Below, piece by piece: positions 52,694 to 58,636 of a DNA stretch of 64,000 nucleotides; positions within the stretch are counted from its first letter, which is position 1, and each line of letters starts with the position of its first letter. The translations under genes were made by a program, and so were the position numbers. Source of the DNA: Cavenderia fasciculata (Eukaryota; Evosea; Eumycetozoa; Acytosteliales; Cavenderiaceae); assembly GCF_000203815.1 (NCBI RefSeq), contig NW_004457718.1:62001-126000 (forward strand). The letters run 5' to 3'. The notes under the pieces were generated by a model, which worked only from the letters and a program-made list of their open reading frames with translations, made no database searches and had not been told where the DNA came from.

Positions 52694-55117
52694 ATGGGTA
52701 GCGGAAATACAGCCAAAACCTATCCACCGGTTTTATACAAGAAACTCAAACCAATTCGTAAATCACCAAAAGAGTTGCCTCAAGTCATTACTCTTGAACA
52801 AATTGTAGAATCACTTCCAAAGGAAGTATTTGAAAAGTCTGGATTCAAGTCTTTCTCGTCACTCTTTTTGACCATCCTTTTCATTGCATTATCCATTGTA
52901 TTTATGAACCATGTCCCATCATACCTTTATCCAATCGGTTGGTTCCTTGGTGGTGCTTCAATTACTGGTGTAAGTAAACTAAACAACAAAACAAAACAAT
53001 CAAACTTAAGTTTATTCTAATTTACTTTTTTTTTATTCCATTTCCATTCATTTGTTTCTTTTCTTTTTTTTTGTTTGTTTGTTTTTAGTTATTTGTAATT
53101 GGTAATGATTGTAATCACAAGTCATTTTCAAACTCTTCAACAATCAACAGTGTCGTTGGTACTATTGTTATGCTTCCACTTTTATATCCATTCCAATCTG
53201 TTAAAATTATTGATAGAATGTAAGTGTTGTTTGGAAACAAAATGCAATCATGTTAAAAAGTATTAATATATTATTTTCTTTTTTATCATTTCTTTTTATT
53301 TATTTTTATTTTTTAGTAATTTAAATAATAATATTAAATCAAATGCATCATTTATTAGAAACTGGGCAACAGGTAAATATTTTTGGTTAGTTAGTATTTG
53401 TAACTGGGCCGAAAACTATTTCAACGTTAAAAAAGTAGAAGACAAGGATGACAAGGCCAAAGCCTTTACCTCTATTGTATTGGTCTATGTGTTTGCCGGT
53501 ATCTTCTTCCCATTGATCCTCAAGTTCTTTGGTATCTCTGGATTCCTCAACTACTGGCTCGCACCATGGCTCATCTACCATTTCCTCGCCTCCACCTTTA
53601 CCTTGTTGCCACGTATCCCATTCTTTGATGAACGTGACAAAAAGTATTCCGTTCACATTACCTACCCCAAGTGGTTTGAATTTGTCGTCAAAGACATCAA
53701 CTTTACCTTGCCACGTCAAATTGCAGTCACCATCCCACATTACAATCTCCGCAAGGCCTATGACGCCTTTAAGAAGAACTGGGGTGAATACATCTTTGAA
53801 ATGCCATTCGAACATGAAATGCTCAAAGAGTTGATTACCCGTTCACAAAGTTTCTCAGAGGAAATCTTTTCGCCATTTGACAATCAACCCATTGCCAAGC
53901 CAACCAACCGTCGTTATGTTCCACCAACCTCTCAACGCAAGTCACGTACCGTTTCTGAGTTCCTCAAGGAAATCAACTGGCTCCACGCCAGTCTCCTCCT
54001 CACCACTCCAGTCATTGCCGTCTATGGTATGATGAGTGTATCACTCACTTGGAAGACATTTGTCTGGACCTTTATCTATTATCACATGACTGGTATGGGT
54101 ATCACCGTTGGTTACCATCGTCTCTACTCTCATCGTTCGTACAAGGCTACTCTCCCCATTCGTATTCTCCTCTTACTCTTTGGTGCCGGTGCCATTGAAG
54201 GATCGTGTCGTTGGTGGTCTCGTGATCATCGTGCTCATCACCGTTACACCGACACTGACAAGGACCCATATAGTGCTCACTCTGGATTCTTTTGGTCGCA
54301 CTTTGGTTGGTTGATGATGAAGCAAGATCCATCCAAGATTGGTCGTTCCAACATTGAAGATCTCAACGCCGACAAATGGGTCATGTGGCAACACCGCAAC
54401 TATCTCCCCATTGCCTTCTTTTTTGGTTTTGTTTTCCCAACACTCGTCGCTGGTTTGGGTTGGGACGATTGGATGGGTGGCTACTTTTATGCAGGTGTCC
54501 TCCGTCTCGTCACAGTCCACCACTCTACCTTTTTCGTAAACTCCTTGGCTCATTTCATCGGTGACACTCCCTACGACGACAACCACTCGCCCAAGGATTC
54601 AATCATCACGGCCATCTTGACGTTTGGTGAAGGTTACCACAACTTCCATCACGAGTTCCCAACCGACTATCGTAACGCCTACTCTACCTTTGGCTACGAC
54701 CCAAGTAAATGGGCCATCAAATTGATGGAGTTGCTCGGTCTCGTCTACGACCTCAACACATTCTCCAAAAATGAAATCCAAAAGGGTATGATCCAAATGC
54801 GTCAAAAGAACGTTGAACAACTCAAGCAAGTCATCCACTGGGGTACTGCCATTGAATCGTTGCCAGAAATGACCGAAGAAGATTTTGACGCTCAATGCAA
54901 ACAAGGCAAGAAATACATCATCATTGACAGTATCGTTCTCGACGTTGAAACCTTTATCGACGAGCACCCAGGTGGTGTTTCATACATAAAGATGGGTCTC
55001 GGTAAAGATGCCACTAAAATGTTTAGAGGTGAAGTCTATGGTCATTCAAATGCTGCAAATAATCTTATCAGTCAATTTAGAATTGCTAGATTCATTTCAA
55101 AAGAAAAAAATAATTAG
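52694..55117 (+). CDS. fused desaturase: inactive DesA-like domain + delta-9 desaturase + cytochrome b5
   Basis: Exons 52694-52969, 53089-53219, 53317-55117; 735 residues. Residues about 1-300 align with cyanobacterial/plastid delta-12 desaturases (DesA/FAD6): GASITGLFVIGNDCNHKSFS, IVMLPLLYPFQS, YWLAPWLIYHFLASTFT, YPKWFEFVVKDINFTLPRQI, IPHYNLRKAYDAFKKNWGEY. Its histidine boxes are gone: HDCGH reads NDCNH, the second box region (about 136-142) has no His, and the third reads TLPRQ. Residues about 350-610 are an intact delta-9 acyl-CoA desaturase with HRLYSH (403), DHRAHH (439) and HNFHH (577). Residues about 655-732 are a cytochrome b5 domain with both haem His (HPGG 686, YGHSN 712). Hydrophobic segments indicate an ER membrane protein. 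The second half should introduce the delta-9 double bond; the first half can only be structural or regulatory. Confidence 0.92.
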
Positions 55118-56280: not shown

Positions 56281-57041
56281 ATGAACATCAAGACTTATAC
56301 ATTATTTATTTTTTTATTATTATTCATTGCTATACAACAGATAGAATCAAAAAATGAACAACCAATTAAAATAGATAATCATCAACAACAACAACAATTG
56401 TTGGATGATTCAAATTATGAACTTGGTGTTGGTATATGGGATGTTACTGGTCCTGCTGCTGAAAGTATGTTAAAGTAAAACATATATCACAACAACATTA
56501 TTATTATTATCTATCAACTCAATCCTAATCATCTCTTTTTTATTCTCTCTTGCTAGCTGGAATGATGGGATATGCACAACCAGGACAGATAACAGAAGGA
56601 ATTCACTTTAGATTAAGAGCACGTGCTTTTGTATTTGTCGATGTCAATGGAAATAGAGCTGTCTATGTTAGTACCGATGCGTGTATGATATTCCAAGCTG
56701 TCAAGTTGAATGTCGTACAATTGTTACAAGATCATTTCGGACCTGATCTATATACATCTGATAATGTATTGTTGAGTGGAATACATACACATTCTGGTCC
56801 TGCTGGCTATTCAATGTATGCTCTCTATGGTATCACTGCTCTTGGTTTCTATAAGGAAAACTTTGACACTATTTGTAATGGTATAGTACAATCAATTATC
56901 ATGGCTCACAATAATGTACAACCTGGTAGATTATTGGTTGAACAAAGTACTCTTTATAATACTAGTATAAAGTATGTAATATATTTTAAAAATATTGATT
57001 TTGAATCGTCATCAAATATTAACATTTACAATAAATGATTT

Positions 57042-57074
<33 letters not shown>

Positions 57075-58636
57075 TATCTAGTCGATCACCAAATGCATAT
57101 TTAAATAATCCAGAAGAAGAAAGATCACTTTATCAAGATGATACTGATAAGAATATTACAGTGATTAGATTAGAGAATGGACAAGGTGATGCAATAGGTG
57201 TAATCTCTTTGTTTTCTGTTCATTGTGTATCAATGAACAACACTAATCATTTGATTAGTGGAGATAACAAGGGTTATGCTTCATATATGTTTGAAAAGTA
57301 TATGAATGGAAATGACTCGTTGCCAGGTGTTGGTCCATTTGTCGCTGCATTTGGTCAATCCAATGAAGGTGATGTGTCACCAAATACGATGGGTCCCAAG
57401 TGTCCAGATGGGAGTCCATGTTCGTCCGATTCAACTTGCAATGGAAAGAATGAAGGATGTATTGCTCACGGTCCGGGAATAGACATGTTTGACAGTACAA
57501 AGATCATTGGTACCAACCAATTCCAAAAAACATTGGATATGTTAGAGTCTGCATCGACACTGGTTTCAGGTGCCATCCAGTATCGTCATACCTATCTCGC
57601 TATGACCAATTTGACAGTGTATCCACCATTTGTACAAGATCCAGTAACCACTTGTCGTCCAGCTATGGGATATGCCTTTGCTGCCGGTACAACCGATGGA
57701 CCTGGTGCTTTTGATTTCACTCAAAACGCAAATGACACACAAGGTAATCCATTCTGGAACTTTATCTCTGGGTTTATCGCCAAACCAACACAAGAACAAA
57801 GAGATTGCCAAGCACCAAAACCAATTCTACTCGATGTAGGTATGACCAAGCCATTGCCATGGATCCCAGATGTTGTACCAATTCAAATCATCACTATTGG
57901 TCAAATAGTTCTTTGTGCAGTGCCAGGTGAATTTACAACCATGTCTGGTCGTCGTCTTCGTAATACCATCACACAAATCATTGGTCAAGGTATTGATAAC
58001 CCAATCGTTCTTGTAGCAGGTCTCGCCAACACCTACACTGGGTACATTGCCACACCAGAAGAATATGATGTCCAAAGATTCGAAGGTGCTGCCACTGCAT
58101 TTGGCCCTAATACTCTTAATGCCTATTTACAAGAGTTTTCAAAGTTGGCTCAGTCAATTGTTGACAAGAAAGAGGTTTCAGCCGGTCCAACCCCACGAAA
58201 CATGACTGGACATACATTCTTTTTCCTTCCACCAGTGATTGTTGATGAAGCACCCAATGGACAATTTGGAAAGGTGTTGCAAGATGTAGAGTCTAGCTAC
58301 TCTGTCGGTGATACAGTAACAGTCTCTTTTTATGGTGCCAACCCACGTAACAACTTTATGACCCAGTCAACCTTTTTGACAGTTGACATGTTACAATCTG
58401 ACAATACAACCTGGAGGACTATTCTTGTTGATGGCGATTGGGATACTAGATTCTATTGGAAGATGCATAATCTTGTACAATCAGCCATCACCATTGAATG
58501 GATTATAGACCCATCATGGAATTACCAACCAGGTACCTATCGTATAACACATTCTGGATATGCAAAACCATCAATGTTTTCAGATAAACTTGTTCCCTAT
58601 TCTGGTCAATCAAGTGAATTTCAAATTACCAATTAA
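56281..58636 (+). CDS. neutral ceramidase
   Basis: Secreted or surface hydrolase that splits ceramide into sphingosine and fatty acid. Exons 56281-56464, 56557-56971, 57082-58636; 717 residues. A signal peptide (residues 1-22, TLFIFLLLFIAI) precedes a short poly-Gln linker. Family motifs: GVGIWDVTGPAAE, MMGYAQPGQITEGIHFRLRA, GIHTHSGP (zinc His), FSVHCVSMNNTN (zinc His), FGQSNEGDVSPN (nucleophile Ser), VPGEFTTMSGRRLR (zinc Glu) and LANTYTGYIATPEEY (zinc Tyr), then the C-terminal beta domain. All catalytic residues appear present. The ATG at 56281 is used; the preceding in-frame codons are not ATG. D. discoideum has two such genes (dcd2A, dcd2B); which one this matches is not decided. Confidence 0.94.

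Follow-up and report, generated by a model that had tools for sequence, protein, structure and literature searches.

The plastid delta-12 (omega-6) desaturase FAD6 is derived from the cyanobacterial DesA, as stated in the relevant part of PMC6946739, and a passage of PMC7212373 raises the possibility that plant omega-6 and omega-3 desaturases pair as heterodimers for channelling. For Dictyostelium discoideum, a stearoyl-CoA desaturase with a cytochrome b5 domain is described in PMC6830349, where the section on this enzyme does not mention a domain in front of it. Here we analyse a gene of Cavenderia fasciculata that occupies positions 52694 to 55117 of a 64,000-nucleotide stretch of contig NW_004457718.1 (hereafter the window; all positions are on its forward strand unless noted), and whose 735-residue product carries a pseudo-desaturase of the DesA/FAD6 type ahead of a stearoyl-CoA-type delta-9 desaturase and its own cytochrome b5. 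We assign a probability of roughly 60% to the reading that the N-terminal domain (N-domain) is a former delta-12 desaturase which is now kept as a non-catalytic partner. The ancestry of the domain and the loss of its metal site are supported by the sequence comparisons reported below; that it serves the delta-9 half as a membrane partner is our best guess as to its role.

The pseudo-desaturase domain comprises residues 34-312 (52793..53845, a span that takes in both introns). Desaturases of the DesA/FAD6 type have three histidine boxes (HDxxH, HxxHH and HxxHH), and the N-domain lacks this set. In the alignment, ex-box 1 reads NDCNH (residues 98-102, 53104..53118) where intact fused relatives have HDCGH or HDCAH, and ex-box 3 reads TLPRQ (residues 266-270, 53705..53719) where they have HVPHH; at ex-box 2 (residues 134-138, 53212..53323, spanning intron 2) all three histidines are gone and the loop that follows is shortened. 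Of the nine histidines that we take to be the metal ligands, by analogy with the family and with SCD1, two are retained, namely H102 and H224. An earlier interpretation of this DNA, which we call the sequence-only reading, held that every histidine box was lost; it was right about NDCNH, box 2 and TLPRQ, but H102 and H224 are still present. Given these positions, delta-12 desaturation by the N-domain is expected to be absent.

What remains of the old site might nonetheless be thought to work with a different metal arrangement, since H102 and H224 persist in the window protein and since D99, C100 and H224 are retained in clade A. We consider continued catalysis very improbable, because two of nine ligand positions are left, box 2 has disappeared together with part of the loop that follows H224, and the pattern of remnant histidines varies from clade to clade. 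Clade A (23 sequences compared) also has eight newly fixed residues, among them Arg269, which replaces a box-3 histidine and is newly fixed in the dictyostelids and in their sister dead sequences. The desaturase fold, by contrast with the metal site, appears to be kept: it is recovered when whole-protein models are compared with known structures, in lists that cytochrome b5 entries dominate. The earlier suggestion of a fold that outlived its metal site is thus borne out by the predicted structure together with the ligand positions, and the N-domain can be described as a pseudoenzyme, that is, a protein whose catalytic residues are lost while its fold is retained.

The second desaturase of the chain (residues 348-608, 53951..54733) has the SCD fold and is complete. 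Its boxes 1 (H403 and H408, 54116..54133), 2 (H440, H443 and H444, 54227..54241) and 3 (H577, H580 and H581, 54638..54652) are kept in all 60 fused sequences that were usable for counting, and so is the entire di-metal site of nine histidines and one asparagine, a ligand list taken from SCD1. These 60, drawn from 63, include the window protein and its paralogue; P0005, P0178 and P0179 were dropped as partial or garbled, the box-1 stretch of P0005 resembling a prediction error. The cytochrome b5 domain (residues 655-727, 54872..55090; Pfam PF00173, E-value 3.6e-15) has the HPGG motif, and its axial haem histidines H686 and H712 are again conserved in 60/60 sequences, so that the sequence-only reading described this half of the protein correctly as a delta-9 desaturase with complete boxes and a haem-competent cytochrome b5. 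Delta-9 regioselectivity on acyl-CoA is predicted from the name in the source annotation only. In one fused subgroup (P0163, P0168, P0170-P0174, P0176, P0177 and P0185) the cytochrome b5 has HPAG rather than HPGG, and most members carry an insert at ex-box 3.

Three exons encode the protein. Exon 1 (52694..52969, residues 1-92) provides the N-terminus and most of the long helices 50-73 and 76-101 of the model; exon 2 (53089..53219, residues 93-136, codon 136 being split) provides the box-1 region with NDCNH and the start of the ex-box-2 stretch; and exon 3 (53317..55117) continues, with its frame unbroken, from the last part of codon 136 through residue 735 to the stop, and so covers the remaining half of the dead domain, the linker, the delta-9 domain and the cytochrome b5. 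The two short GT..AG introns lie at 52970-53088 (20% GC) and 53220-53316 (16% GC). The spliced product is sequence-identical to P0001, 'delta 9 fatty acid desaturase [Cavenderia fasciculata]'. Start and stop had already been placed correctly, and the single open frame claimed for the fusion exists in the spliced protein, not in the genomic DNA with its two introns. Since a single exon holds residues 137-735, with the latter half of the dead domain and all of the delta-9 and b5 domains, the fusion is independent of the splice prediction. An artefact of gene model or assembly can be ruled out, as exon 3 holds both halves and the same layout is found in independent species as well as in relatives whose names are of transcript style.

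When the whole protein is scanned against Pfam, FA_desaturase scores above its cut-off with a best stretch at 381-585, whereas residues 1-328 scanned alone stay below it (21.4 versus 29.7 bits), which may explain why the front half has gone unannotated. A YibE/F-like identity (PF07907) for residues 45-130 of that 328-residue piece was rejected at 21.9 bits against a cut-off of 27.2, and all matches in an NCBIfam scan fell far under their cut-offs. Downstream of the gene, a neutral/alkaline ceramidase gene (window 57035-58636, forward strand) encodes another lipid enzyme, a neighbourhood that is probably due to chance.

The layout is far more widespread than a single amoeba, and it is shared far beyond chance. 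A protein search with residues 1-345 returned 12 proteins: those of six named dictyostelid species (the window's included), P0003 and P0005, which group with them, P0009, P0010, a Selaginella FAD6-like protein and a Sphingomonas protein. The tri-domain layout is common to the six named species and to P0003 and P0005. A search with P0010 added P0013 and P0014 along with plastid omega-6 desaturases, and an alignment search added fifty more fusions (P0133-P0181 and P0185), among them Capsaspora P0180, C. deminutiva 'ScdA' P0150, D. purpureum P0151, and the transcript P0167, which we take to be from Physarum on the basis of its identifier style. Candidates in the P0010 search had at least about 427 residues, and those in the other two at least about 404. 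In total, at least 63 fused proteins were tabulated; this is a lower bound, because the proteins considered were the best 120 of 176 in the P0010 search and the best 120 of 1842 in the alignment search. The impression that the fusion was a one-off of one amoeba therefore did not hold.

Across the 60 usable fused sequences, the N-domain retains all nine ligand histidines in 3 cases, six or seven in 6, four in 10, and three or fewer in 41, so that living sequences represent stages with 9, 7, 6, 4, 3, 2, 1 and 0 histidines. The family thus displays a stepwise path from enzyme to pseudoenzyme with living intermediates. The intact end of this series consists of P0010, P0013 and P0014. P0014 (tig00020553_g10659.t1), like the non-fused protein P0182 (tig00000981_g5874.t1), has an identifier in the style given for Cyanophora paradoxa in a figure legend of PMC12449267. 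P0010 and P0013 are MMETSP transcripts, and one might guess that they too come from glaucophytes.

To place the N-domain we built a tree of 60 sequences: 40 of the 63 fused proteins, 9 FAD6 (8 of the 117 non-fused proteins listed, plus P0011), 10 cyanobacterial loci and the Sphingomonas protein. The cyanobacterial loci came from a prokaryote search with the intact-type N-domain, in which, of the 80 loci kept out of 484 confirmed, 78 bore cyanobacterial labels and 2 bore odd metagenome-bin labels; 11 of the 80 were picked, and L076 was dropped for its short wrong frame. The fused sequences form a single clade (99/95) joined to green plastid FAD6 (100/99), with cyanobacterial DesA outside, and within the fused clade the three intact sequences are sister to the remaining 37 (98/97). 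Capsaspora P0180 (branch length 3.09) and the Physarum-style P0167 (1.74) are long, and their exact placement is accordingly unsure; when the longest branches are removed (27 fused sequences left), support stands at 97/91 for the fused clade and 86/79 for the dead clade. The N-domain therefore shares common ancestry with FAD6 and DesA, and the desaturase ancestry proposed earlier for residues 1-300 is supported by this tree, with the refinement that FAD6 is the sister group and cyanobacterial DesA lies outside.

On this tree, with regain forbidden, a single loss of the first histidine of box 3 is reconstructed on the branch leading to the dead clade, covering all 37 of its members; the other ligand positions have 3-8 losses each, apart from the histidine in a membrane helix, which has none. 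These counts lean on some weak branches. Because the nearest intact fused relatives include the Cyanophora-style P0014, the gene was likely acquired by transfer, or by ancient inheritance, from a fused protein of the plastid lineage. The sequence-only reading had offered transfer or an ancient paralogue; a plastid-lineage fused source is the part of this that we would keep, while the branching is unsettled, with a topology that joins the intact fusions to FAD6 and leaves the dead fusions outside not being rejected (approximately unbiased test with the longest branches removed, p = 0.12), and the direction is unproved.

Trees of the delta-9 domain (40 and 36 fused sequences with 21 and 17 single ones) retain most of the same small clades, with fused and single proteins intermixed. 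Their root is untrustworthy, as the DesC outgroup sits on a branch of 4.4; for the second tree, 5 of 12 DesC loci passed a motif filter. With this uncertainty of the root, single delta-9-b5 proteins of fungi and of Planoprotostelium fall among the fused ones. The Cyanophora-style P0182, a delta-9-b5 protein that has no N-domain, groups with the intact fusion P0014, and appears from this position to have lost the domain secondarily. We also considered whether the gene arose by fusion of a cyanobacterial desA-desC pair. The idea came from 3 of the 6 cyanobacterial genomes examined for both genes, in which, provided that contig numbers match up, the DesC hit is no more than about 500 bases away from DesA. 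This origin is ruled out by the delta-9 half, which in P0010 is only 29-35% identical to DesC, whereas identity between the window protein and named fungal delta-9-b5 proteins stands at 49-56%.

Is the dead domain maintained by selection, or is it merely carried along? A neutral relic within a single transcript might be suggested by the several independent decays of the histidines and by the looser constraint seen in paralogue B. However, seven A-type orthologues (P0003 and those of the six named dictyostelids) form 21 pairs whose identity averages 69.6% in the N-domain, as compared with 68.7% in the delta-9 domain (D9), 67.9% in the b5 domain and 50.7% in the linker; that is, the dead domain is conserved like a catalytic one. 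Compared with the three intact sequences, the same seven are 37.7% identical in the N-domain and 59.7% in D9.

The rates of change in trees of 23 sequences with fixed topology separate two phases. Along the dictyostelid stem, the length is 0.556 for the N-domain and 0.094 for D9, a ratio of 5.89; within the dictyostelid crown, the lengths are 1.43 and 1.97, a ratio of 0.72, as compared with 1.10 in the crown of the intact copies. In 60 column bootstraps, the dictyostelid crown ratio ranged from 0.53 to 0.89 and fell under that of the intact crown in 60/60, whereas the stem ratio ranged from 2.8 to 14.6 and exceeded the crown ratio in 60/60. A high stem ratio (7.3) is likewise seen in the sister sequences, most of which are environmental. 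A high stem ratio followed by a low crown ratio indicates that the N-domain changed quickly and was then held. Since it has evolved more slowly in the dictyostelid crown, relative to D9, than in copies whose metal site is intact, we find the neutral relic hardly credible. Judged from protein sequences, the dictyostelid A-type N-domain is a pseudo-desaturase under selection and not a relic; purifying selection is apparent at the protein level in these orthologues, and is weaker in other clades.

The distribution of constraint within the domain bears on another explanation, namely that the old acyl tunnel still binds an acyl chain without chemistry, as a sensor of lipid or membrane state that tunes the delta-9 half. 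Identity among dictyostelids peaks at helices 76-101 and 109-123 (85%), while the box-2 stretch 127-139 is 56% identical, as against 75% in five intact-type sequences; stretch 139-157 is loose in both (39% in dictyostelids and 35% in intact-type sequences). Several best-kept helices beside a relaxed box-2 stretch would suit such a sensor, but helix 50-73 is poorly kept, at merely 58%, and we think it unlikely that sensing is what the domain is kept for.

The rest of the genome provides some context. Searching it for PF00487, with exons scored one by one and only the best candidates considered, yields five places: the window gene, L001, L002, L003 and L005. L001 and L002 have a cytochrome b5 ahead of the desaturase, an arrangement termed front-end, and L003 has a sub-threshold match to sphingolipid DES. 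L005 (G000:C5:2683752-2687402, minus strand) is a second fused gene of pseudo-desaturase, delta-9 desaturase and b5, with relatives in C. deminutiva (the protein named ScdA) and D. purpureum; its N-domain is dead as well, with remnants (GYACGKN at ex-box 1 and LARLQTQ at ex-box 3) that differ from those of the window gene. A genome search with the intact-type N-domain found these two dead fused copies and nothing else. This touches on the possibility that the N-domain has ceased to serve the delta-9 half and now acts in docking or as a scaffold, be it for other proteins or for a subdomain of the endoplasmic reticulum, as FADL, a chloroplast protein discussed below, may do. Were that so, one might expect to see the domain on its own, yet both copies are fused to delta-9-b5; the argument is weak, since free-standing dead domains of about 330 residues fell below the lengths searched, and the scaffold is an alternative that we regard as doubtful while giving it real weight.

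According to the part of PMC11900508 that compares them, D. discoideum has 5,9- and 5,11-dienes whereas Physarum makes linoleate. The five PF00487 places in the C. fasciculata genome fit an absence of methylene-interrupted dienes. It would be tempting to name the dead domain as the cause of that absence, but this is undercut by the Physarum-style fused copy, which is dead too, and leaves weak consistency only.

We can now set out how a dead desaturase may have come to be retained as partner of a live one. As sequence and trees indicate, a delta-12 desaturase of the DesA/FAD6 type was fused to a delta-9-b5 enzyme, a state in which all histidines persist in relatives such as the Cyanophora-style protein. 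In the fused ancestor, the two halves may have been neighbours in the membrane, paired as a heterodimer within one molecule, with 18:1 handed from the delta-9 to the delta-12 site and one cytochrome b5 shared by both. The metal site was then lost early in the clade of dictyostelids, Capsaspora and Physarum (the last by identifier style), while fold and fusion stayed. After this loss, the N-domain would hold the delta-9 half in a dimer-like arrangement, or would control its substrate access or stability; its membrane body may have been retained as a support that the delta-9 half by then needed in order to be assembled, kept stable or controlled. The scaffold or heterodimer-like partner proposed in the sequence-only reading would likewise be a possible role.

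Several observations weigh against this account. The predicted model has a pTM (predicted template modelling score) of 0.56, too low to establish how the two halves pack. The sister, mostly environmental sequences have a crown ratio of 1.05, similar to that of the intact sequences; the N-domain of paralogue B has changed faster than D9 (crown ratio 1.75); and so has that of the group with boxes 1 and 2 retained, where identity is 43.6% in the N-domain versus 64.5% in D9. The extra constraint is therefore demonstrated for the dictyostelid A-type genes only. The 23-taxon rate tree is itself weak internally in places (bootstrap 30-66), helix 50-73 of the N-domain is only loosely conserved in dictyostelids, and the alternative topology noted above has not been rejected. 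The existence of P0182 without an N-domain means that the delta-9 enzyme can do without one, so that reliance is not universal. Finally, the Physarum-style copy is dead although Physarum is reported, in the part of PMC11900508 just cited, to make linoleate; the dead domain does not, then, track a simple loss of linoleate, and in Physarum linoleate must arise elsewhere.

A broader proposal, which we put forward tentatively and hold to be somewhat less than an even bet, is that in several non-photosynthetic protist groups (dictyostelids, Capsaspora, Physarum by identifier style, and environmental lineages) the delta-9 desaturase requires a dead desaturase of the plastid lineage within its own chain, which was gained through a fused algal-type delta-12/delta-9 gene and turned early from enzyme into obligatory membrane partner. 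Together with FADL, the FAD6 fold would then have been put to structural use on at least two occasions, each after loss of its metals. If the live half does need the dead half, the system offers a handle on why membrane desaturases pair, and on whether a partner that does no chemistry can still act; gene replacement is routine in D. discoideum. No description of this fusion was found in the open-access literature, subscription journals being mostly outside that coverage. Such source names as the fused proteins carry ('delta 9 fatty acid desaturase', 'stearoyl-CoA desaturase') describe the active half, and since they cover that half only, an extensive family of proteins with a fused pseudo-desaturase has apparently been overlooked.

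How does this protein compare with known systems? The solved structure closest to the N-domain is FADL (8xks chain K), a subunit of the Chlamydomonas Ycf2/Orf2971-FtsHi motor complex (8xks, 8xqw, 8xqx) and itself another pseudo-desaturase, a FAD6 homologue with boxes 1 and 3 broken. Like the N-domain, which has a FAD6-like fold and degenerate boxes, FADL lacks part of the metal site (HECAM at box 1, YMLPQ at box 3) and works as one part of something larger, a chain of a complex; unlike it, FADL is not fused to a delta-9 desaturase: its 682 residues make up a protein of its own, in which box 2 is retained and a long N-terminal stretch precedes the match. Dictyostelids have no chloroplast, and we therefore claim no Ycf2-FtsHi motor role for the N-domain. 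With DesA and the plastid FAD6 delta-12 desaturases the N-domain shares sequence ancestry and fold, but it keeps 2/9 histidines and is joined to a delta-9-b5 enzyme; here, too, no plastid role is claimed. Relative to the SCD or Ole1-type delta-9 enzymes with C-terminal b5, the fungal layout, the window protein adds an N-terminal pseudo-desaturase of 340 residues. Plant FAD2-FAD3 and FAD6-FAD7/8 pairs likewise comprise two desaturases in sequence that are possibly heterodimeric (the same passage of PMC7212373), but these are separate active proteins, not one chain with one half dead. Further counterparts are the intact fusions P0010, P0013 and P0014, which share with the window protein their domain order, similar length and clade, and which differ in having 9/9 N-domain histidines, with which they are presumably working delta-12 plus delta-9 enzymes.
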